A stretch of 64,000 bases of DNA from Pleurocapsa sp. PCC 7319 (lineage in GTDB: Bacteria > Cyanobacteriota > Cyanobacteriia > Cyanobacteriales > Xenococcaceae): contig NZ_KB235922.1 of NCBI RefSeq assembly GCF_000332195.1, forward strand, positions 4,003,322 through 4,067,321. The letters run 5' to 3'. Positions 2,401 to 26,419 of the stretch are shown one piece after another (within the stretch, counting starts at the first letter, position 1; the number at the start of each line of letters is the position of its first letter). The notes under the pieces are model-generated. The model saw nothing but the letters and a program-made list of their open reading frames with translations, was not told the origin of the DNA and did no database searches. Made by a program: the position numbers and the translations under genes.

Positions 2401-3885
2401 TTAATTTTCAGAAAAGTTATTAAATTTATTCACGACTCTTGAGGATTCCTGGTAATAATCAGTATAAATATTCACCACGGTGCCAGCTAAAAGCCATAAA
2501 TAAAAAGAAAAGCATTTAATCTCAAAGATGCGTTCGACAAAACCATAGAAAATAGCAATAATAGTTAAAGTGCAAAATGCTATTCCCAGGTTTCGACTCT
2601 GACTTTCTAAACAATAATCAATTAACCATCGAGAAGTTTTATATAGACGTTGCAGTATATATCCCAAGAGAGCAATTCCCGGAATTCCGTAATAAATTAA
2701 CATGGAGCTCCAATAAACATCTTCAAACCAAAATTCTCTTTCTAAAATTAAACTTTTCTGTCTAGGAACTAACTCTGCTAAATTTTGAATTGCTTCATGG
2801 GGTGCGGGACTTAAACCAAACCAATTTCCCGTACCAATAATTCCTTTGAAGGCGGTTTTGATAATCCATTGTCTTGTTCCCCGTTCCCAGTATTCAGCTG
2901 AAAAAAGTTGTTCAAAGTAAGCTATGGGATTCAAATCTGCTCCCTTTCTAATTGACCAACTATCTATTGAGCTATCCACATTGAGGAAGAATAAAGAGCA
3001 AAATAGTAGAATAAAAAAACCAAATGAATAAAACCAGATGATTTTGCTTACCAAGAGTTTTTTACGAAACAAAAATAAGATGATTACGGGAATCATCAAA
3101 CCAAACAAAAGTGCAATTCGCTTATAGGTAGCAAAAAACGCAAAATACATGATCAAAAAGTTCAATAGACTGATTGATAAAAATGAATTAGTAGTATTTT
3201 TTAGAGCTAAAACTACCAACACAATAAAACAAACGAGTAAAAATGCCGAAGTATTAGCAGTATTAGCAAAAGTACCATTGACGGCACCACTTTTTAAAAT
3301 TCCAGCACCAACTTCAGAACCTTTTTTAATTGCGACTCCTCCTGCTTCCAAATTAATAGTTTGAGGAACAAATAAATTATTAAAACCTGCTGGAGCAAAG
3401 TATTGAATTGTAACTAAATAACCTTGGATTAATCCCAAAATTAAAATTGTTTTTAATAGCAGATTTATTTTTTTTCTAGATATTTTGAGGTCTACAACAA
3501 TATAATAGACAGCAAAATACCGAATCAAAGTTCTTAAATTATCAAGTCCTGCAAAAATTGATGTTTGATTAACAACCAGTAAAGCTAATGCCCATAGTAC
3601 AAAGCAAATAAAAGCCAATTCAATTGAAGATTTTATCAAGCGATCGCCTGAAACTAATCGCTTATAGAAAACTCTAATCCACAAGAAATAAAGTATAAAC
3701 TCATGTAAAAATCGTATAAATAGAATAAAAATTGATGGACCAGGTGTCCATCTCAGGATAACCTCTTCAAAAGGAAGATAAATAGCGATCGCCCAAACAA
3801 TCCAAAAAGTTCTTTCTCCTCTAAGTTTAGCTATTTGATACCAGTCAATTATTCTCCAAAATATTTCACTTGGTTTGGTACTCAT
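2401..3885 (-). CDS. O-antigen ligase/polymerase-like (Wzy/WaaL) membrane protein
   Basis: 494 aa with about a dozen hydrophobic segments spread over the whole length. It has the architecture of the O-antigen ligase/polymerase superfamily: a cluster of membrane spans, then a larger hydrophilic loop with aromatic and charged residues (about 330-400, including TGNWFGLSPAPHEA and EFWFEDVYW), then C-terminal spans. Wzy-type proteins join lipid-linked repeat units into polymer on the outer face of the inner membrane. In this context of flippases, Wzz-like protein and glycosyltransferases, Wzy is the natural reading. The family is too divergent to separate polymerase from ligase by eye. The gene lies 52 bp upstream of the glycosidase-like gene on the same strand and may be co-transcribed with it. 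Confidence 0.7.
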   Translation of the reverse strand: MSTKPSEIFWRIIDWYQIAKLRGERTFWIVWAIAIYLPFEEVILRWTPGPSIFILFIRFLHEFILYFLWIRVFYKRLVSGDRLIKSSIELAFICFVLWALALLVVNQTSIFAGLDNLRTLIRYFAVYYIVVDLKISRKKINLLLKTILILGLIQGYLVTIQYFAPAGFNNLFVPQTINLEAGGVAIKKGSEVGAGILKSGAVNGTFANTANTSAFLLVCFIVLVVLALKNTTNSFLSISLLNFLIMYFAFFATYKRIALLFGLMIPVIILFLFRKKLLVSKIIWFYSFGFFILLFCSLFFLNVDSSIDSWSIRKGADLNPIAYFEQLFSAEYWERGTRQWIIKTAFKGIIGTGNWFGLSPAPHEAIQNLAELVPRQKSLILEREFWFEDVYWSSMLIYYGIPGIALLGYILQRLYKTSRWLIDYCLESQSRNLGIAFCTLTIIAIFYGFVERIFEIKCFSFYLWLLAGTVVNIYTDYYQESSRVVNKFNNFSEN

Positions 3886-7629: not shown

Positions 7630-8442
7630 ATGATTTTGTCTAATAACAATAGTTCGAGAATCAGAATACACATTGTAGGCTGCGGGCCGCGCACGGGCAC
7701 AACCCTGATGGCGGAAATGGCGATCGCCTGCTGGAAAATCGATCTCTATACAGAACATGAAGATAGTATTTATACTCGTCCCTCTCGCCCAGGGGAAATC
7801 TTTTTAACTAAACGTCCTCGCGATATTCTGGTTGTAGATCCTATACTGCGTATGCTACCCAACCTTTATGTAATCTATATGCTGCGCGATCCTCGGGATA
7901 CAATCACCAGTAAACATCGCAAAGATCCTAAGCGATATTGGGCAAGTCTGCGCTATTGGAAGGCATACACTCCTTATGGGTGCAAATTGCAACATCATCC
8001 GCGATTTATGACAGTTCGCTATGAAGATTTAGTCCAAAAACCCGATAATGTTCAAGCATATTTGATGCAGCAAATGCCTTTTTTACAAAAACGAGCTTCC
8101 TTTAGTCGTTATCATGAGTTTGCTCAACCCTCAAAACGTTCCCTAGATGCGCTACGTGGTATACGTCCTGTCGCTTCTAATAGCGTTGGTAAATGGCGCA
8201 ACCATCTTCCACGAGTAGCAGGACAACTTCAGCTCCATGGAGAAAAAGCGATCGCTCAAGATCTGATCGAATATGGATACGAATCAGACGACTCTTGGCT
8301 AAATGAGCTGCAAAATGTATCTCCCGATTTAAGTGAGAGTCATTGGCCTGAATATTTTACTACTTCAGAGCTTAGACAACGCATGAGGGGTAAATATAGC
8401 AGAGCTTTGGCAGCATATGTGCGTAATTTGCACAGCAGATAA
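7630..8442 (+). CDS. PAPS-dependent sulfotransferase family protein
   Basis: 270 aa. An N-terminal P-loop-like phosphosulfate-binding loop, HIVGCGPRTGTTLMAEM (about residues 13-29), is followed by the 3'-phosphate-binding segment YMLRDPRDTITSKH. This order and spacing are the sulfotransferase fold signature. The enzymes move sulfate from PAPS to a sugar hydroxyl or amine and release PAP. It is the first of a plus-strand pair with 8498-9418 (55-bp gap). Divergent transcription from the GT2 gene at 7379 leaves a 250-bp spacer likely to hold both promoters. It contains one HIP1 site, unlike its neighbour, so the two may have different histories. The acceptor is unknown. Confidence 0.8.
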   Translation: MILSNNNSSRIRIHIVGCGPRTGTTLMAEMAIACWKIDLYTEHEDSIYTRPSRPGEIFLTKRPRDILVVDPILRMLPNLYVIYMLRDPRDTITSKHRKDPKRYWASLRYWKAYTPYGCKLQHHPRFMTVRYEDLVQKPDNVQAYLMQQMPFLQKRASFSRYHEFAQPSKRSLDALRGIRPVASNSVGKWRNHLPRVAGQLQLHGEKAIAQDLIEYGYESDDSWLNELQNVSPDLSESHWPEYFTTSELRQRMRGKYSRALAAYVRNLHSR

Positions 8443-8497: not shown

Positions 8498-9418
8498 ATG
8501 AAATTACCTAATTTAGTAATCGCTGGAGTTGTAAAAGCAGGAACGACTTCGTTATATAGTTACTTATCCCTTCATCCCGAAATTTGTTGTTCCACTGTCA
8601 AAGAAACTTGCTATTTCTCTTACTATCGATACGGTCAGTGGGATCCTTGGTATAGTGACAACGACGATCCATTTAAGCAGTATCAGAATTACTTTGTTCA
8701 CTGTGAGAATCAAAAGTATGTAATGGAAGCTAGTCCTGGTTATTTTGAGGGTAAAAAAACAGTTGCTCAAACCATCAAAAATACTCTAGGAGACCAGGTA
8801 AAAATTATTATTATTCTGAGAGAACCAGTTTCACGACTAATTTCTTTTTTTAAGTATAAAAAGAGTAGATTAGAACTAGATAAAAAACTAAGTTTAACTA
8901 AATATTTAGAACAATGTATTGCTTTATCACCTGAAGAAAGAATAAAAAAAGAAAATGATACTTATTGGGGTATTGAAGGTGGATTTTATACTAATTACTT
9001 AGAAGATTGGTTGAATATTTTTGGCAAATCTATTTATATTACTTTTTTTGACGAACTGCAATATAATCCTAAGCTATTGCTGACTAATATTTGTAATTGG
9101 TTAGAAATAGATGATATTGTGTTTAAATCACAACAATTAACAGTAGAAAATAAAAGCTTAAATTACAAAAACAAATATTTACAAGAGCTGGCTCTATTGA
9201 TTAACCATAAAGCGGAAAAATTCTGGCGAGCTAATCCAGGAATCAAAAAGGGTTTGAGAAATATTTACTATAACTTGAATAATATGCCGTATCAAGAAGA
9301 AATTAGCGAACAAACTCTAAACTATTTGCAATCTCTTTATCAACCTTATAATCAAAAATTGGCAACACAGCTAGCAGCCAGAAATATTACTAACCTTCCT
9401 CAATGGTTACTGTTTTAG
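8498..9418 (+). CDS. Sulfotransferase, heparan-sulfate sulfotransferase-like
   Basis: 306 aa. It starts KLPNLVIAGVVKAGTTSLYSYLSLHPEI, the 5'-phosphosulfate-binding loop typical of the NDST/heparan-sulfate branch. Next come KETCYFS and later IIILREPVSRLISFF, the 3'-phosphate-binding element with the usual Arg and Ser. KETCYF carries a basic residue where these enzymes have a catalytic Lys. It should sulfate a polysaccharide or lipid-linked oligosaccharide. The gene is conspicuously A+T-rich and lacks HIP1 sites, which suggests recent acquisition. It lies directly behind another sulfotransferase gene and ahead of a GT4 gene. Confidence 0.83.
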   Translation: MKLPNLVIAGVVKAGTTSLYSYLSLHPEICCSTVKETCYFSYYRYGQWDPWYSDNDDPFKQYQNYFVHCENQKYVMEASPGYFEGKKTVAQTIKNTLGDQVKIIIILREPVSRLISFFKYKKSRLELDKKLSLTKYLEQCIALSPEERIKKENDTYWGIEGGFYTNYLEDWLNIFGKSIYITFFDELQYNPKLLLTNICNWLEIDDIVFKSQQLTVENKSLNYKNKYLQELALLINHKAEKFWRANPGIKKGLRNIYYNLNNMPYQEEISEQTLNYLQSLYQPYNQKLATQLAARNITNLPQWLLF

Positions 9419-10861: not shown

Positions 10862-11743
10862 CTACTGATCGCGATAGGTTTGGGCGAAAAACCCTAGGTA
10901 ATGCATGGCTAAACTGACGAAGATAACTTGGGTTGTCTGCAAGGTATTTTTAAGCCTACCTTCTTGAGATAATTGATTTAGTTTGCGTCTGGTAGTACGA
11001 AATGGCGGTTTTAAGTGGGATAGAGTTGTGAGTAAATAGACTAGTAGTGGTTGAGTTGCTCTAGCTTGTTCGTAGCCTACTCCCCTAACACGAGAGATTT
11101 TGCGATACATTTGTCCCAGTGTATATCTGGCAGGATGAGCGACACAAGCTTCATCTGCATAAACTGAATCATATCCTTGAGCAAAAACTCTTTGACCCCA
11201 TTCTTTATCTCCTCCAGATTTGAGTTGGGAATTAAATAAACCTACTCGTTCGAACACGGATTTATAGGTAAATATATTCGCGGTCGCGCCATATTTATGC
11301 TCTTTGATATATTGTGGTTGATTGAAAAAAGTAACGCTATCGTAAAGTTCAACTGCTGTAGGGCGATCGCGATTTTTAAAAAAAATCTCAATTTTCCCCG
11401 CCACTAGCCCGCAATTAGCAGTACTCAAAAGCTTTTTGACCCCTGTTTCGAGCCAGTCTTCTTTGGGGATACAATCAGCATCAGTAAAAGCGAGTATTTC
11501 CCCTTTAGCCAGAGTAATACCGTGGTTGCGAGCAGCATAAGAACTAAGGTTGTTGCAGTAAGCAAATTTAGCTTGAGAGAAATTTTGGATTAAACCTTCG
11601 AGACTTTCATCACTCCCATTATCGACAACAATCACTTCATAATAATCTTGAGTATAAGTTTGCGCTTCTAAAGCTGCCAAACATATTTTTAGACGCTCTG
11701 CATCGTTAAACACGGGAATAATTACCGAAACAAATTGATCCAT
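10862..11743 (-). CDS. Family 2 glycosyltransferase
   Basis: 293 aa with VSVIIPVFNDAERL, EVIVVDNGSDES and the DxD-bearing AFTDADCIPKEDWLE. The latter form (TDADC) is common in inverting GT2 enzymes that process exopolysaccharide sugars. A basic, hydrophobic C-terminal region (about 225-290) may sit against the membrane. It lies only 11 bp downstream of the receiver-Wzz fusion on the same strand, so the two are very likely co-transcribed and belong to one export/assembly unit. The acceptor is unknown. Confidence 0.87.
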   Translation of the reverse strand: MDQFVSVIIPVFNDAERLKICLAALEAQTYTQDYYEVIVVDNGSDESLEGLIQNFSQAKFAYCNNLSSYAARNHGITLAKGEILAFTDADCIPKEDWLETGVKKLLSTANCGLVAGKIEIFFKNRDRPTAVELYDSVTFFNQPQYIKEHKYGATANIFTYKSVFERVGLFNSQLKSGGDKEWGQRVFAQGYDSVYADEACVAHPARYTLGQMYRKISRVRGVGYEQARATQPLLVYLLTTLSHLKPPFRTTRRKLNQLSQEGRLKNTLQTTQVIFVSLAMHYLGFFAQTYRDQ

Positions 11744-11754
11744 GATGGCTCTAT

Positions 11755-13680
11755 TTAATATTTATCTGTCTTAGAGTTCAGAGAACGATGCTTTCTTGAA
11801 GATGAGTTGACTTGAGCTCGATCAATCCTATGAACAGGAGGGTTTTTACTTAAATTTGGAGTTGACAACGAAGCAGGTTGTCGCTCAAACCAAAGTAAAA
11901 TCAAGCCAGTAGTAACCAGAAAAGAACCTGCCATACCACCCAACAACAGCAAACGAAGATTGGGACTCGTTGGTTGATTTTCTTTGGGCAGGCTTGGTTC
12001 TTTAATCAACTGAAGAGGGGGATAAAGGGAATAGACATGTTCTTTACCCAAATCTAATTCTGCTAAAGTCGTGGCAAATACTGCCTCTGCTACTTGTAGA
12101 TCTCGCTGAAAGCGATCCATTTTTAGCTTGTTTTGAGCTATATTTCGTTGACGGCTTTCTAGTCGTCCCATCTGATTTTCTAACTCTTGGATTTGAGCTT
12201 CTAATTTTTGCTCTTCGGCCGCATTGGAAATTAAATCTTTGAATACTTCTTGCCTAACTGTTTTAACTTTCGGATCGAGAGTAAGGTAAATAATTCTTTC
12301 TAGTTCTTGTTTACTTACCGATCGATTCAATAAAAAAGCTGCTCGTTCCTGTAAAGATGTAGTTGTCTCTTCTAACTCTGATTGTTTTTCGATGACTGCT
12401 GGATTTACTGCCGTAAACCGAGACAATAAATTATTTAATTCTCCTCTCCCTTGAGCATAAAGCTCTAACTGTTGTTGGAAAACATCATCATCCAGCAATT
12501 TATAAGCAGCCGTCGCTTCTGTCGAAGACAAATTCAACTCTTCTCCCAATTGTTGAGAGAGATTATTTAATCCCTTTTCTTGAGCTGTTAACTCTGCTCT
12601 TTGACGATATAAATCTTCCAAATTGTTGGTTATCTGTTTAATCTGTTCCTCCGAACTCAAGGAAGAGGAAACTTGGTATGACGAAAGTTTTTCCTGAGCT
12701 GAATCCAGTCTCTGACGTGCTTTTTCTAGGGTTTTTTGAGTATGCTGTTCTTGGCGTTCTACTTCAGCTTGCCTCAACTTATCAATTTTTTCAGTCAGAA
12801 CATGATTAAAAGCATAGGCTTTTTGTTGCGCTTTTATAGGAGTATCCCCTTCAATCATCAAGGTAATGATGCTACCTTCCTCGTCAGTAATAATTTCTGG
12901 TTTGCCAAAGTCTTTTGCAGACAGACCCGCTTCTATGGCGGCTCGCTCTAAGATAGATGAATCAGCAGCAATATAAGCATAATCTACCCTAATGTCTTCA
13001 CCACTCTGTTCAGATTTAGAATTAGATGATGCCCTTCCAATGCTAGGTAAGCTCAGTTCCACTCCTGTTCCTCTACCCAGTACTTTGAGTCCCCATTCGC
13101 TTGTGTATTGAGGTGGAGCAATTTTCCAATAAACCACTACTACCAACCAAACTAAAAAGTTTAGTAAAACTCCCAGTAGATAATAGGGTGTTCTAGAAGC
13201 AGGTTTTTGAGTAGAAAATAAATCAGGACGTTGCTGCCCATTAAAATTGTCTCTACTAATTACCGGGTTATACTCTGTTGGTAACTTCTGCACCATCCCT
13301 GAGCCTACCTGTAAACGCCCCCTATGAACAGAGCGGATAAATTTAATTAGTTCTGGAGCAGGAGTAGTTTTGAGGATATATCCTTTCGCACCCGCTTGCA
13401 GAGCTAGGTTAAAGATTTGATCGTCATCATGAGTACTTAAGATTAAAACCTTTACTTCAGGATAACGTTCAGAAATAATTTTGGTAGCGGAAATCCCATC
13501 TACTCCTGGCATTTCCACATCCATCAAGACCACATCAGGTCTAAACTTATCTACTTTGTCGATCGCTACTTGACCATCAGCTGCGATCGCCACAATTCTT
13601 AAATCTGATTCTTGCTCTAAATAATTTTTTAAAAGTTGTAGAATTGTCTGTTGGTCTTCGACTATAAGAAGATTAATCAT
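11755..13680 (-). CDS. Receiver domain fused to a Wzz/GumC-type polysaccharide chain-length protein
   Basis: 641 aa. Residues 1-125 are a complete NarL-type receiver: acidic pair Glu8-Asp9, phospho-acceptor Asp54 in VVLMDVEMPG, Ser82-Thr83, and Lys104 in GYILK. There is no helix-turn-helix after it. Instead a linker (126-165) leads to a membrane span (about 166-185). A periplasmic region rich in heptads and Gln/Glu/Leu follows (about 300-540, long coiled coil), then a second span (about 577-600) and a short basic cytoplasmic tail. That is the Wzz/GumC (PCP) plan without a tyrosine-kinase domain. PCP proteins set polymer length and bridge to the export pore. Inference: a histidine kinase may adjust polymerisation directly through Asp54. 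The reading frame is continuous across the junction. It overlaps no gene and is followed 11 bp on by a GT2 gene. Confidence 0.85.
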   Translation of the reverse strand: MINLLIVEDQQTILQLLKNYLEQESDLRIVAIAADGQVAIDKVDKFRPDVVLMDVEMPGVDGISATKIISERYPEVKVLILSTHDDDQIFNLALQAGAKGYILKTTPAPELIKFIRSVHRGRLQVGSGMVQKLPTEYNPVISRDNFNGQQRPDLFSTQKPASRTPYYLLGVLLNFLVWLVVVVYWKIAPPQYTSEWGLKVLGRGTGVELSLPSIGRASSNSKSEQSGEDIRVDYAYIAADSSILERAAIEAGLSAKDFGKPEIITDEEGSIITLMIEGDTPIKAQQKAYAFNHVLTEKIDKLRQAEVERQEQHTQKTLEKARQRLDSAQEKLSSYQVSSSLSSEEQIKQITNNLEDLYRQRAELTAQEKGLNNLSQQLGEELNLSSTEATAAYKLLDDDVFQQQLELYAQGRGELNNLLSRFTAVNPAVIEKQSELEETTTSLQERAAFLLNRSVSKQELERIIYLTLDPKVKTVRQEVFKDLISNAAEEQKLEAQIQELENQMGRLESRQRNIAQNKLKMDRFQRDLQVAEAVFATTLAELDLGKEHVYSLYPPLQLIKEPSLPKENQPTSPNLRLLLLGGMAGSFLVTTGLILLWFERQPASLSTPNLSKNPPVHRIDRAQVNSSSRKHRSLNSKTDKY

Positions 13681-13713
13681 ATGGTCACGTTTAGTTAAGG
13701 ACGAACTTAAAAT

Positions 13714-14000
13714 CTGAGAATATCAAATATTTCATAGTTATAAATAGCCCCAGTAAAAATAACTTCGTCACTAGCTGTTGGCTCACTTCTTGATAATCAG
13801 GAATTATTTGTGGTCAATCAATAGCGTCTTTAAATTATTAATTTCATCTCTTATATACACTTAGGTAAAAGCACAACAATCTCAAGAATAGAATTTTTAG
13901 ATTCTGGTATAACAGCTACCAAAACATATTTACCTCGGATAGAGTTGATAAAATCTCAATTAGCTTCCTCAACTTCAGTAACTCTTTATAGTTTTCAAGA
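13714..14000 (-). pseudogene. Decayed fragment of a GT4 (DUF1972-type) glycosyltransferase
   Basis: Read on the minus strand, this stretch gives EEAN, stop, then FINSIRGKYVLVAVIPESKN and NSILEIV. After a frameshift it continues SDEVIFTGAIYNYEIF and stops. The intact gene at 25292-26419 has RRYALVIARPEPENSILEIV and SDEVMFFGAIYNQEV in the same order, so this is a broken second copy of that type of gene. Only the middle-to-C-terminal part remains, with stops and shifts. The edges are approximate. Confidence 0.75.
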
Positions 14001-14608: not shown

Positions 14609-15967
14609 ATGAATAAAGGAGTTCAGTATCTCCAAGACTTATGGCAAACCTTCTTAATTAAAAATAACGATAGCAGCCTCAAACAACGTTTAATCAGAGG
14701 TGTAGCTGGTACTTTTGGTCTGAAACTTGCGGCTACTGGATTAAATTTTCTTACTGGTATACTCCTAGCTCGCTTGTTAGGAGCATCAGGTTTTGGTGTT
14801 TATACTTACGCTTTTGCCTGGACTCAATTGTTGATCTTGGCGGGAACTTTAGGACTGGATAAATTAATCGTCCGTGAAGTAGCCATCTATCAAACCAAGT
14901 CAGAATGGAGTTTGGTACGTGGTCTATTGCAGTGGGCTAATCAAATTGTCCTCATTGTTTCTGTGGTATTGGCTCTAGGAGCCATAGGTGTAGCTTGGGG
15001 CTTAAATATGGAGGCTAATTCTGAACAGTTTTGGGCTTTTTGTGTGGCGATGCTGTTAATCCCGATCGCTGTTCTGAGAAATCTGCGACTATCAGCGATG
15101 AGAGGACTACATCAGATCGTGATCGGACTTATGCCAGAATTGATCCTCGCTCCTCTATTGCTGCTCGTTTTGACTGGATTTACCTATCTATTCCTAGGAG
15201 ATAGTTTGAACGCTTTCTGGGTGGTACTAATGAGAGTGGTCGCGGCTCTTATTACTCTGGCGATCGGCGTGAAATTGCTAGACCTAGCTTTGCCCAATGC
15301 TGCCAAGGAAGCCACTCCTAAATATCAGATCAAGACTTGGCTAAGTAGTGCCTTACCCTTCATGTTCTTGGGTAGTCTATACATAATTAAATCTCGGACT
15401 GATATTCTGATGCTGGGAGCAATCCAAGGTGCTGAAGCAGCGGGAATTTATTTTGCTGTCAGTCGAGGAGCCCATCTAATTAACTTCATTTTGGGTTCTG
15501 TGAATACTGTTTTAGGACCCAATATTGCCAATCTTTATGCTGAAGGCAAGACGAAGCAACTACAACGGGTTATGACTAAAAGTGCTCGTGTTGTATTGTT
15601 GATTGCTTTACCAATAACTGCCACTATGATCGGACTAGGCCATTGGTATTTATCGCTGTTTGGGAAAGATTTTTCTCAAGGACAACAGGCTTTGACCATT
15701 CTATGCGTGGGACAATTAGCACATGCCTCAGCCGGTTCAGTCGGTTTATTACTCAATATGACTGGAAATGAACGTTTTACGTTTATTTCTAACGTGGCAG
15801 GAACAGGACTCAATGTTATTTTGAACGTTTTATTAATTCCTCGATGGGGAATTGAAGGTGCAGCATTAGCCACGACCAGCACCACGATTTTGGTCAATAT
15901 TATTAATACACTCTGGGTACGTCAAAAACTTGGTATTGATTGCACTGCTTTGGGAAAAGTAATCTAA
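14609..15967 (+). CDS. Wzx-type polysaccharide flippase (MOP/MATE superfamily), copy 1
   Basis: 452 aa with about 12-14 hydrophobic segments. The conserved start of the polysaccharide transporter branch is present: FGLKLAATGLNFLTGILLARLLGASGFGVYTYAF. The final segment carries IPRWGIEGAALATTSTTILVN, also typical. These proteins move undecaprenyl-linked repeat units across the inner membrane. The protein is very similar to the second copy at 16634-17992, with the first 25 residues almost identical. The 5'-flanking DNA is shared too, showing a fairly recent duplication. It is an isolated plus-strand gene between pseudogene remnants. Confidence 0.88.
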   Translation: MNKGVQYLQDLWQTFLIKNNDSSLKQRLIRGVAGTFGLKLAATGLNFLTGILLARLLGASGFGVYTYAFAWTQLLILAGTLGLDKLIVREVAIYQTKSEWSLVRGLLQWANQIVLIVSVVLALGAIGVAWGLNMEANSEQFWAFCVAMLLIPIAVLRNLRLSAMRGLHQIVIGLMPELILAPLLLLVLTGFTYLFLGDSLNAFWVVLMRVVAALITLAIGVKLLDLALPNAAKEATPKYQIKTWLSSALPFMFLGSLYIIKSRTDILMLGAIQGAEAAGIYFAVSRGAHLINFILGSVNTVLGPNIANLYAEGKTKQLQRVMTKSARVVLLIALPITATMIGLGHWYLSLFGKDFSQGQQALTILCVGQLAHASAGSVGLLLNMTGNERFTFISNVAGTGLNVILNVLLIPRWGIEGAALATTSTTILVNIINTLWVRQKLGIDCTALGKVI

Positions 15968-16122
15968 AGCGATCTATTCTCAGGATTAATCACTGCTCGT
16001 TATTAGAGTCACTTTTTTGTGACATTTAGCCAGTATAATAAACCACTATTTTAATGTGAATAACATTAACCTATAAATCATCAAAATCATTCAAAAAATT
16101 ACTCATAAACTGGCTAAATAAT

Positions 16123-16360
16123 ATGTTGAAATCTCAATATAAGAAAGCGAAAATAAAAGCAGCGCAAATCAACAGTCACTTTCAATATTATTTTTATGAA
16201 TTATTTAAGCATGAAGACTTTTTTCAATCAGTAGAAAAATATTGTATGTTTGTTGGCTACCCAAGAAGTGGTCACACCCTGGTTGGTTATCGATCAAGTC
16301 AAAAGTCAAATAGATCAATATGAATTTTTGCAAGGTTATTCTTATGAAGACCCTGACTAA
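16123..16360 (+). pseudogene. Sulfotransferase pseudogene with a large internal deletion
   Basis: The N-terminal piece MLKSQYKKAKIKAAQ ... EKYCMFVGYPRSGHTLVG is a close copy of the start of 20873-21718. Near 16285 it jumps, out of frame, to QVKSQIDQYEFLQGYSYED and a stop, which matches the last residues of the same protein. About 200 codons, including the 3'-phosphate-binding segment, are missing. The upstream DNA (GTCACTTTTT region near 16010) also resembles that of the intact copy. Confidence 0.88.
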
Positions 16361-16439: not shown

Positions 16440-16505
16440 AACTTTGAGCGATCGCCACAATTCTCAAATCTAACTCTTGCTCTAACTAGATTCTGTTGGT
16501 GTAGG
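16440..16505 (-). pseudogene. Fragment of a receiver-domain gene like 11755-13680
   Basis: On the minus strand this reads LEQELDLRIVAIA, nearly the same as LEQESDLRIVAIA (residues 21-33) of the receiver-Wzz fusion. The nucleotide match includes the HIP1 site. The sequence degenerates on both sides. It sits about 130 bp before the second flippase, as the intact fusion gene sits (farther away) before the first. This suggests a duplicated block whose receiver gene was lost. The spacer 16361-16633 shows nothing else. Confidence 0.65.
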
Positions 16506-16633: not shown

Positions 16634-17992
16634 ATGAATAAAGGAGTTCAGTATCTCCAAGACTTATGGCAAACCTTCTTAGCTAAAAATAACGATACCA
16701 GCCTCAAACAACGTTTAATTAGAGGTGCAGCGGGTACTTTTAGTCTGAGACTTGTAGCTACTGGATTAAATTTTCTTACTGGTATACTCCTTGCTCGCTT
16801 GTTAGGAGTATCAGGTTTTGGTGTTTACACTTACGCCTTTACCTGGACTCAATTACTGACCATCGGGGCAACCCTAGGGCTAGATAAATTAATCGTCCGT
16901 GAAGTAGCTATCTATAAAACGAAATCAGCCTGGGGTTTGATGCGGGGTCTAATCCATTGGACTAACTGGGTAGCATTAGCGATGTCTGTCGCCTTAGTTT
17001 TGGGAGCAATAGGTGTAGCCTGGAGCTTAAATATGCCAGCTAACTCCGAACAGTTTATAGTTTTCTGTGTGGCTATGCTTCTAATTCCCATCGAGACTCT
17101 AAGAAATATAAGATTAGGAGCGATGAGAGGACTACATAAAATTGTGATGGGGCTAGTACCAGAGTGGATTATCGCTCCCCTATTGTTACTAGTCTTAACC
17201 GGATCTGCTTATCTATTGCTAGACGGAAGTTTAACTCCTACCTTGGTAGCATTAATTAAAGTATTTGCTGCGACTGTTACTCTGGTAATCGGCGTAAAAT
17301 TGCTTCATCAAATTTTGCCCTCTGCAGCTAAAGAAACTCCCCCCGAATACCAAGCAAAGCAATGGTTGTACAGCGCCTTACCCTTCATGTTTATAGGAAG
17401 TATGTTCATGATTAAATCACGATCTGATATTTTGATGTTAGGAGCATTGCAGAGTGCTGAAGCAGTAGGGATTTATTTTGCTGTTAGTCGAGGAGCCCAA
17501 CTGCTCGACTTCATTCCCAATGCTGCCAACGCAGTTCTCGAACCCAACATTGCTAGTCTTTATACCGAAGGAAAGATCGAACAGATACAAAGAATTATGA
17601 TCAAAAGTTCTCGTACGGTATTTTTGACTTCCTTACCAATAATTATTGGTCTGATTGGATTTGGCTACTGGTATTTATCATTGTTTGGCAAGGAGTTTAC
17701 CCAAGGAAATACAGCTCTAATCATTCTTTGTGTGGGACAACTAACAAATATAACCGCCGGTTCAGTTGGTTTGTTGCTAAACATGACTGGAAATGAGCGT
17801 TACACTCTGATTAGCCGTGGTGGTAGTACCATTTTGAATGTAGTTTTAAACGCTTTATTGATTCCCAGATGGGGACTCGAAGGAGCAGCTATAGCTACGG
17901 CTAGCAGTACGATTTTATTAAATCTTGAAAATACAATTTGGGCACGCAAAAAGCTGGGCATTCATTGCACTGCCTTCGGAAAATTGATCTAA
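16634..17992 (+). CDS. Wzx-type polysaccharide flippase (MOP/MATE superfamily), copy 2
   Basis: 452 aa, the same length as copy 1 and alignable end to end without gaps by eye. It has the same MNKGVQYLQDLWQTF start and the same C-terminal DCTALGK/HCTAFGK ending. Differences are spread along the membrane spans, so both copies look functional and free of stops. Two flippases in one locus may mean two repeat-unit substrates, dosage, or relaxed selection after duplication. The stop is 14 bp from the end of the convergent PhyH-like gene. Confidence 0.88.
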   Translation: MNKGVQYLQDLWQTFLAKNNDTSLKQRLIRGAAGTFSLRLVATGLNFLTGILLARLLGVSGFGVYTYAFTWTQLLTIGATLGLDKLIVREVAIYKTKSAWGLMRGLIHWTNWVALAMSVALVLGAIGVAWSLNMPANSEQFIVFCVAMLLIPIETLRNIRLGAMRGLHKIVMGLVPEWIIAPLLLLVLTGSAYLLLDGSLTPTLVALIKVFAATVTLVIGVKLLHQILPSAAKETPPEYQAKQWLYSALPFMFIGSMFMIKSRSDILMLGALQSAEAVGIYFAVSRGAQLLDFIPNAANAVLEPNIASLYTEGKIEQIQRIMIKSSRTVFLTSLPIIIGLIGFGYWYLSLFGKEFTQGNTALIILCVGQLTNITAGSVGLLLNMTGNERYTLISRGGSTILNVVLNALLIPRWGLEGAAIATASSTILLNLENTIWARKKLGIHCTAFGKLI

Positions 17993-20782: not shown

Positions 20783-20872
20783 TAGTAAGATCATTTTATA
20801 ACTCAGTGTTAATAGCCTTTAAATATTAAAAAAATTTGATCTATAAAACTACTATTGGAGCGATCACCTAGA

Positions 20873-21718
20873 ATGCTAAAATCTCAGTATAAGCAAGCTA
20901 AAAATAGAGTTACACAAATTAGTGATCTCTGCCAATATTATTTTTATGACTTATTCAAAAGTGAAGATTTATTTAAATCTATAGAAAAGTATTGTATGTT
21001 TGTTGGCTATACTAGGAGCGGACATAGTTTAGTTGGTTCACTGCTAGATGCCCATCCCAATATAATTATTGGACACGAACTGAATGCTCTTCAGCTTTTT
21101 GAAAAGAGTGTTAATTATCAGAAAATTTACTATTTATTGCTTCAAAATTCGCAGCGAAAAGCAACCCAGGGACGACAAGAAACCGGTTATTCTTATCAAG
21201 TTCCTCATCAATGGCAAGGAAAGTTTCAAACCTTAAAAGTTATTGGTGATAAAAGAGGAAGTGCAACTAACTTTATTATTCGTACTAATCCTAAAATTTT
21301 AGATGTCTTACCAAATAGACTTAATGTTCCTATTAAATTTATCCATGTAGTCAGAAATCCCTTTGACAATATTACAACCATGATTACTCGTAAAAAAGCT
21401 AATTTGGAATATGGGATAAATTCGTACTTTACTAAGTGTAAAACTGTTGCTTACCTAAAAACACAAATAGATACAAAAGATATTTTAGATGTTCGGCACG
21501 AATCATTAATTGATAATCCACAAGCTATTTTAAGTCAAGTTTGTAAATTTTTGGAAGTTGAGACCAGTCAAAAATATCTAGATGACTGTGCCAGTATTGT
21601 TTTTAAATCACCTAAGAAAACTCGATTTACTTATCAGTGGGACGATAAATCAATTGAGTTGGTCAAAAATCAAATAGAGCAATATGAATTTTTGCAAGGA
21701 TATTCTTATGATGATTAA
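20873..21718 (+). CDS. PAPS-dependent sulfotransferase family protein
   Basis: 281 aa from the ATG at 20873; the frame extends to a TTG at 20855, but the pseudogene copy at 16123 also begins at this ATG. MFVGYTRSGHSLVGSLLDAHPNI is the phosphosulfate loop and KFIHVVRNPFDNITTMI is the 3'-phosphate-binding segment. About 40 residues precede the fold. It is A+T-rich with no HIP1 site. The stop overlaps the start of the ATP-grasp-like gene by 11 bp, so translation of the two is probably coupled and their products may act on the same molecule. Confidence 0.82.
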   Translation: MLKSQYKQAKNRVTQISDLCQYYFYDLFKSEDLFKSIEKYCMFVGYTRSGHSLVGSLLDAHPNIIIGHELNALQLFEKSVNYQKIYYLLLQNSQRKATQGRQETGYSYQVPHQWQGKFQTLKVIGDKRGSATNFIIRTNPKILDVLPNRLNVPIKFIHVVRNPFDNITTMITRKKANLEYGINSYFTKCKTVAYLKTQIDTKDILDVRHESLIDNPQAILSQVCKFLEVETSQKYLDDCASIVFKSPKKTRFTYQWDDKSIELVKNQIEQYEFLQGYSYDD

Positions 21719-25291: not shown

Positions 25292-26419
25292 TCATTTGTG
25301 ATTAAGTCGATTCAAAAATAAATCTTCATAAGCTTTTAAATCTCGATCATCAGCAAACTCCTCATAGTATCTAGCAAAACTATTTTGTTTCATTGTTTCT
25401 ATATTTGTTTCATCATCTAGGATTTGAGTGATTTTTTGCGAACAATCATTTTCATCTTGAAAATAGTAAGCATCTTTTCCAGCCACCCAAGAATTAAATG
25501 GATTTTTATGTGCAAGTATTGGGCTGCCTGCCGATAGAGCTTCTATCAGAGAAGGGTTTGTGCCGCCTACTTGATGTCCATGAATATAGAGCCTAGTATA
25601 ATATCTTAAGGATTTAACCACTTCTTGATTATAAATAGCTCCAAAAAACATTACTTCATCACTGGCCGCTGCTAAAACCTGTTGATGATAGGCATTTTTA
25701 TGTGGAAAATAATTCCCCAAGATTACTAATAGTAAGTTTCTCGGTCTTTGGGAAAAGGCAGATACAATTTCTAGAATCGAGTTTTCTGGTTCAGGTCTGG
25801 CGATCACTAATGCATATCTTCGAGGAACGAGACAGTATCTTTTGAGTAGTGTTTCATCCGCCTTAGTTACGACTTGGGCACTATAGGGTATGACGGAAAT
25901 TGGCTTAGAAGTTTTGACTTCTTGTCGTAAGTATTTCTTAATTTGTGGGTGATCGGCGATTAAATGATCGCTCAACCAGACAGCACATCTCTCGTTAATG
26001 TATAGCCAAGCTTTCTCTAAGAAATTCCATTTTTTTCTCCACCATTCCATACCATCCATATTGGTCACATTGAGACGGTTTCTAAGCTTATAAAGTAGGG
26101 AAAAAATGGCAGTGTTATAACCAAGCGTCAGAACGATACCTTCTTGATTGACAGCATTAAAAGCCGCTTTGAAATCGAACAAGATAGACCAGAAAGAGCT
26201 ATTTTTGGGAACTGGTATATGAACTAGATTGATTCCCTGCCAAAGACTGTAGTAAAATTTTCGACGGTAAAATTTTTCACCATTACTTTGACAGTAAACT
26301 GTAACATGCCATCCCTTCTTCACTAAGTACAGAGCCAAACGTTCAGCAAATGTTTCAAACCCACCATGATTTCCAGGGATACCACGAGTTCCAAGTATTA
26401 ATAGTTTGTGCTTTTTCAT
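25292..26419 (-). CDS. GT4-type glycosyltransferase with DUF1972 N-terminus
   Basis: 375 aa beginning HKLLILGTRGIPGNHGGFETFAERLA, the hallmark of the DUF1972 rhamnosyl/glycosyltransferase group. The GT4 donor domain follows (YALVIARPEPENSILEIV, then GGTNPSLIEALSAGSPILA). These enzymes often start exopolysaccharide side chains by adding rhamnose or a related sugar. A broken second copy lies at 13714-14000. Upstream is an 850-bp non-coding stretch, so it has its own promoter and closes the island on the right. Confidence 0.87.
   Translation of the reverse strand: MKKHKLLILGTRGIPGNHGGFETFAERLALYLVKKGWHVTVYCQSNGEKFYRRKFYYSLWQGINLVHIPVPKNSSFWSILFDFKAAFNAVNQEGIVLTLGYNTAIFSLLYKLRNRLNVTNMDGMEWWRKKWNFLEKAWLYINERCAVWLSDHLIADHPQIKKYLRQEVKTSKPISVIPYSAQVVTKADETLLKRYCLVPRRYALVIARPEPENSILEIVSAFSQRPRNLLLVILGNYFPHKNAYHQQVLAAASDEVMFFGAIYNQEVVKSLRYYTRLYIHGHQVGGTNPSLIEALSAGSPILAHKNPFNSWVAGKDAYYFQDENDCSQKITQILDDETNIETMKQNSFARYYEEFADDRDLKAYEDLFLNRLNHK

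Follow-up and report, generated by a model that had tools for sequence, protein, structure and literature searches.

A response-regulator receiver fused to a polysaccharide co-polymerase in Pleurocapsa sp. PCC 7319 and other cyanobacteria

We identified in Pleurocapsa sp. PCC 7319 a gene encoding, in this order, a NarL/DesR-type receiver (REC), a disordered linker, a first transmembrane helix (TM1), a Wzc/KpsE-like periplasmic polysaccharide co-polymerase (PCP) part and a second transmembrane helix (TM2). The gene lies in the 64,000-nucleotide stretch of DNA analysed here (the window; Table 1). We consider it probable that the product is a membrane response regulator with a PCP output, in which phosphorylation of the receiver would set PCP assembly, and hence polymerisation or export, post-translationally. 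The component parts are known, and their combination is without description in the open literature searched. The earlier note on this DNA had put the protein forward as a candidate for an undescribed system, and indeed we found no REC-PCP description in the open literature (subscription journals outside coverage).

Table 1. Features of the fusion gene and its surroundings, in window coordinates
Feature	Position	Strand	Evidence
REC-PCP fusion gene, 641 aa	11755..13680	-	single open frame; 20 homologous fusions
Receiver, residues 1-122	13315..13680	-	Pfam Response_reg 9e-28; DesR/VraR fold, Z 24-25
Phospho-acceptor Asp54 codon	13519..13521	-	Asp in 21/21 fusions
Linker, residues 123-163, mostly disordered	13192..13314	-	pLDDT <50 at 129-162
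TM1, residues 164-187	13120..13191	-	hydrophobic helix in model
Periplasmic PCP part, residues 188-574, alpha/beta base and long helices	11959..13119	-	structural matches; profile to KpsE, Wzc
TM2, residues 575-600	11881..11958	-	helix in model
C-terminal tail, short, disordered	11755..11880	-	41 residues past TM2, pLDDT <50
GT2 glycosyltransferase, 11 bp downstream of fusion	10862..11743	-	Glycos_transf_2 2.8e-24; order repeated in L039-L043
DUF1972 GT4 glycosyltransferase relic, just upstream of fusion	13708..13929	-	65% over 228 bp vs 25599-25817
DUF1972 GT4 glycosyltransferase, intact	25292..26419	-	DUF1972 4.6e-20
Second-receiver-copy relic	16448..16488	-	41 bp, 90% vs 13583-13623, E 3e-7, same orientation
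Wzx-type flippase copy 1	14609..15967	+	Polysacc_synt 1.5e-17
Wzx-type flippase copy 2	16634..17992	+	block shares 75.8% DNA identity with copy 1
Polytopic membrane protein, Wzy-like by look, position only	2401..3885	-	without Pfam or NCBIfam match
Sulfotransferase	7630..8442	+	Sulfotransfer_3 4.5e-11
Sulfotransferase	8498..9418	+	Sulfotransfer_1 2.3e-11
Sulfotransferase	20855..21718	+	Sulfotransfer_3 7.4e-12

The fusion protein and its two halves

The reading frame starts with ATG and is unbroken to its stop. The proposal that a receiver is fused here to a two-span PCP, and not to a DNA-binding output, was borne out both by this single ORF and by the total of 21 fusions. The same proposal would have fallen had an assembly error joined two genes. 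Such an artefact, whether of assembly, sequencing or annotation, is ruled out for all practical purposes: nearby gene relics do indicate that the region has been rearranged, but the 20 other fusions come from other places and other assemblies, one of them from an isolate, Hyella patelloides LEGE 07179, both halves are under purifying selection, and the source assembly (7.39 Mb, 99.99% complete) consists of 10 contigs. Relatives with separate genes were found only in part, in that stand-alone PCPs exist, but in other lineages and never with a receiver in the loci read.

The full-length AlphaFold2 model, a single chain with the oligomer outside its reach, has a mean pLDDT of 84.5, and its receiver extends to residue ~122. 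A small alpha/beta base follows TM1; helices, two of them 58 and 83 residues long, span residues 281-552, and a strand (556-560) precedes TM2. The linker is the fastest-evolving segment in most of the pairs compared, and its length varies among the fusions.

The receiver gave the sole Pfam match in the protein (Response_reg, residues 5-115). The closest solved chain by sequence is DesR (4.7e-24), and the nearest folds are those of VraR and DesR; DesR, VraR and NarL regulators thus have the closest receivers, but their output is a DNA-binding HTH. The fusion has no match to the C-terminal LuxR-type HTH that marks a NarL-type regulator, the remaining chain being PCP. The window protein has the residue set of the receiver superfamily (E8/D9, D54, S82 and K104), and all 21 fusions keep the acid pair (E/D8, D9), D54, S/T82 and K104. 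Glu8, Asp9, Asp54 and Lys104 had been listed as catalytic residues in the earlier note, and this reading stands. Thr83, listed with them, was wrong: the conserved Ser/Thr, and so the switch residue, is Ser82. Every fusion has S or T at position 82, and position 83 varies among T, G, V, M, C, N, S and I.

The phospho-site is intact and under selection. Nonsynonymous divergence was lower in REC than in PCP in seven of nine pairs (exceptions, L011-L012 and L022-L048), and a comparison of the window protein with its own clade gave a REC dN of 0.07-0.12 and a PCP dN of 0.155-0.24. In that clade dN/dS is about 0.1. Purifying selection acts on both halves. The L022 and L048 fusions are 74% identical in their PCP parts and 55% in their receivers, a difference that suggests replacement of the receiver within the fusion.

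As its output half, the protein carries a polysaccharide co-polymerase of the PCP-2 type that lacks a kinase domain. As the PCP half of the window protein has no direct Pfam match, Wzz included, this assignment was made with profile and fold evidence. A profile of the 21 fusions, compared with the PDB, matched KpsE (8tsh, E 1.5e-6) and E. coli Wzc (7ni2/7nhr, 3e-4), and NCBIfam chain-length-determinant models were matched by 44 of the 53 relatives, the best E-values lying between 1e-18 and 1e-10. Since a fold search with the whole model gave receivers only, the PCP part was modelled on its own (AlphaFold2, pLDDT 83.4) and used as a separate query. Its best 18 VIA-align matches were all PCPs, with Z-scores of 15.4 for Wzc, 14.5 for KpsE, 11.6 for WzzE and 11.4 for the Wzz of a Wzy-Wzz entry. 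It should be noted that rows for unrelated coiled coils start at about 11, so the lower PCP rows alone are not decisive. Foldseek likewise placed Wza-Wzc, Wzc, KpsE and WzzE at the top. In the models, the two transmembrane helices flank a periplasmic alpha/beta base with long helices, which is the structural hallmark of a PCP. No kinase family match indicative of a BY-kinase (PCP-2a Walker motifs, Tyr cluster) was found in the protein, and the chain ends too soon after TM2 (Table 1) to hold such a domain.

Distribution and history of the architecture

The earlier note had suggested looking for the receiver plus Wzz/PCP architecture elsewhere, and this search yielded 20 further fusions. The total of 21 comprises 16 in the family of the window and five in one family of another order. 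In the former (Xenococcaceae/Hyella group), the 16 fusion genes are found in 15 of 27 genomes, and none was found in the other 12; among the carriers named are Hyella patelloides LEGE 07179 and Xenococcaceae MAGs. Proteins related to the PCP part occur in 94 of the 293 genomes of the window's order, mostly as stand-alone chains of about 480-500 aa. The five remaining fusions (G514, G415, G445, G508 and G368) came from a search of the class (390 genomes); 58 genomes from the phylum's other classes yielded no fusion at the threshold applied. Because the genome searches score few candidates per genome, these counts of fusions and relatives are lower bounds. A contig search with an alignment of close-clade fusions found five named loci, and a single-protein query found none. 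Beyond the phylum, the search covered plasmid records, and the single locus looked at, in Azospirillum, has a stand-alone PCP.

In the PCP tree, fusions fall into at least three groups amid stand-alone proteins. A single clade of all 21 was rejected (AU p 1.6e-45), while a single clade made up of the window's group and L016 was not rejected (p 0.71). In the REC tree (135 columns), the fused receivers form about four clusters, and one clade is weakly disfavoured (p 0.04 on the full set of rows, 0.07 once two long-branch rows are removed). The PCP part thus strongly rejects a common origin of every fusion; the short REC part does not do so decisively. As the fusions are not one PCP clade, the REC-PCP architecture was gained or lost several times, always in the setting of polysaccharide loci, and separate fusions, loss of REC or transfer would all fit. 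For the same reason, evolution must have retained or created the pairing repeatedly, which counts in favour of control by the receiver.

The polysaccharide locus

The GT2 gene and the fusion are likely in the same operon. In the relatives of the window's clade, the order is DUF1972 GT4, REC-PCP, GT2, which is whole in L040-L043, the GT2 being partial in L039. The region of the window holds five sulfotransferases, several glycosyltransferases and two Wzx copies, a gene content that suggests a sulfated exopolysaccharide. Neither Pfam nor NCBIfam matched the polytopic product of 2401..3885, and the PDB gave no Wzy hit that would identify it as Wzy.

The second fusion group, which is common to both orders, has another arrangement: the gene after REC-PCP is polytopic and Wzy-like, overlapping the fusion by 4 bp in several loci, and GT2 and Wzx genes come next in most. 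Three loci of stand-alone relatives were inspected for an OPX gene, and all three have one alongside; L054 and L144 show the order OPX, PCP, Wzy-like. Two OPX genes were found in the genome of the window, both far from the fusion.

The earlier note had also reported a relic of a duplicated receiver at 16440-16505 and had taken the receiver to be part of a duplicated block. The relic is real, though small (Table 1). Membership of the block is plausible but thinly supported: the relic lies about 105 bp upstream of the homologous block of Wzx copy 2. Two further features were noted in the window. A sulfotransferase relic at 16002-16350 resembles 20855-21718, with both ends matching and the middle deleted, and a 588-aa ORF (582-2348) contains a short near-exact protein repeat (RLWRWAEPNRYSGGGANREAWTKSN...), as if repeated DNA had been inserted in frame. 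In two distant loci (L050:1229-3487 and L121:6452-8719), the gene directly 5' of the fusion encodes a BNR/sortilin-like repeat protein.

A proposed mode of control and its alternatives

In the mechanism that we favour, an unlinked histidine kinase would phosphorylate Asp54 of the cytoplasmic receiver, altering receiver-receiver contacts, and this change would pass via the linker and TM1 and alter how the PCP ring is assembled, which would act with a Wzy polymerase and an outer-membrane OPX channel. Polymerisation, chain length or export of a polysaccharide, probably sulfated, would then be set after translation, and the receiver would stand in for the tyrosine kinase or pseudokinase by which other PCP-2 proteins are controlled from the cytoplasm. 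The occurrence of 21 fusions in two orders, the conserved phospho-site, the constraint on REC, the PCP fold and the polysaccharide operons all argue for this reading. The 12 family genomes in which no fusion was found count against it, as does the failure to find a kinase partner.

In the genome of the window, which gave 81 HisKA and 10 HisKA_3 matches, no kinase of either type was found near the fusion: the window has none and the nearest is >160 kb away. The earlier note had proposed looking for a co-occurring histidine kinase; in the fusion neighbourhoods read by eye, no conserved kinase was found either. DesR-type receivers pair with HisKA_3 kinases, and DesK-DesR complexes were among the fold matches of the whole fusion model; the partner is possibly of the HisKA_3 (DesK/NarX) type. 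Three such kinases (C7:3105210, 5222245 and 1552673) have no listed receiver within 11 kb and are candidates only.

The lack of an adjacent kinase in any of the loci read would also fit a receiver with a passive role in oligomerisation or anchoring, or one that serves another two-component system as a phosphate sink, with no phosphorylation-dependent effect on the polysaccharide; DifD in Myxococcus is a sink receiver of this kind (PMC12802240). We regard this as improbable: 21 diverged fusions keep all catalytic residues, which a passive module does not need, and REC is always at the cytoplasmic end of a PCP within a polysaccharide locus. The linker raises a different point. Being disordered and variable in length, it gives no evident rigid mechanical coupling, which counts against control of PCP assembly by the receiver. 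A long, variable and disordered linker would suit a recruitment tag, whose phosphorylation picks the partners (glycosyltransferases, the initiating transferase or Wzy) gathered at the PCP and leaves oligomerisation unchanged. EpsW of Myxococcus works by binding the initiating transferase EpsZ (PMC12802240), but no such partner was identified for the fusion, and we hold this alternative to be possible though unlikely.

Phosphorylation-dependent control of PCP assembly, our preferred reading, can be compared with several known systems. PCP-2 proteins depend for their function on oligomerisation cycles under the control of a BY-kinase in the cytoplasm (PMC8285477) or, for EpsV, of the pseudokinase EcpK (PMC12004946). 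E. coli Wzc, a PCP-2a protein, is the top structural match, shares the PCP fold with long helices and also carries a cytoplasmic phosphorylation module on the same chain (PMC8285477), but this module is a C-terminal tyrosine autokinase and that of the fusion an N-terminal receiver; a Wzc-like BY-kinase is encoded elsewhere in the same genome (L140). The Myxococcus PCP-2 protein EpsV likewise has no kinase domain of its own and is controlled from the cytoplasm by the pseudokinase EcpK (PMC12004946), which is a separate scaffold, the EpsV chain having no receiver. Phosphorylated EpsW controls EPS synthesis post-translationally (PMC12802240); it is, however, a separate single-domain protein and acts on the first step, through EpsZ, and not on the PCP. 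Finally, synechan of Synechocystis is a sulfated EPS under two-component control by XssS/XssR/XssQ, a histidine kinase, a response regulator and a STAND activator that are separate proteins encoded near the EPS cluster, and XssR has no DNA-binding domain, but XssR and the PCP XssK are separate and control is transcriptional via XssQ (PMC8205485, PMC13125312).

Tyrosine kinases and pseudokinases are the inputs by which PCP-2 rings are known to be controlled from the cytoplasm. Whether REC-PCP is a third mode of PCP-2 control, within a wider cyanobacterial class of N-terminal NarL/DesR-type receivers on trans-envelope adaptors of the PCP and HlyD types and on other membrane proteins, we regard as evenly poised. 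If so, two-component signalling would act directly on the polymerisation/export ring, as a non-transcriptional branch of such signalling, and membrane machines would join the outputs of a class mostly studied as transcriptional. The cell would regulate slime output at the level of the machine, not of its genes, and environmental sensing would be tied directly to the slime, bloom or biofilm polymer of cyanobacteria. A receiver on the ring would make fast polysaccharide control testable with single point mutants (D54A, D54E). No paper on response regulators with a membrane output was found in the open literature, and the terms 'response regulator' and 'receiver' are both absent from a phylum-wide survey of cyanobacterial EPS proteins (PMC4594306).

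Other receivers on membrane proteins were seen in the same genome. At least four REC-HlyD fusions (L143:2108-4381, L126:1323-3299, L131:1165-3162 and L137:1287-3365) place a receiver on another kind of trans-envelope adaptor, the HlyD-type membrane-fusion proteins; in a class-level search with that of L143, matches outside the window's family stopped short of the receiver part. Eight loci (L002, L003, L004, L007, L127, L132, L133 and L139) encode a receiver, a linker that is a coiled coil in most of them and a C-terminal hydrophobic anchor, with no HTH, and these are apparently membrane-anchored response regulators. L135:1057-2223 joins a receiver to a membrane part that matches Ferric_reduct (E 4e-9). 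The receivers of the REC-HlyD, anchored and ferric-reductase-like proteins are among those closest to that of the window.
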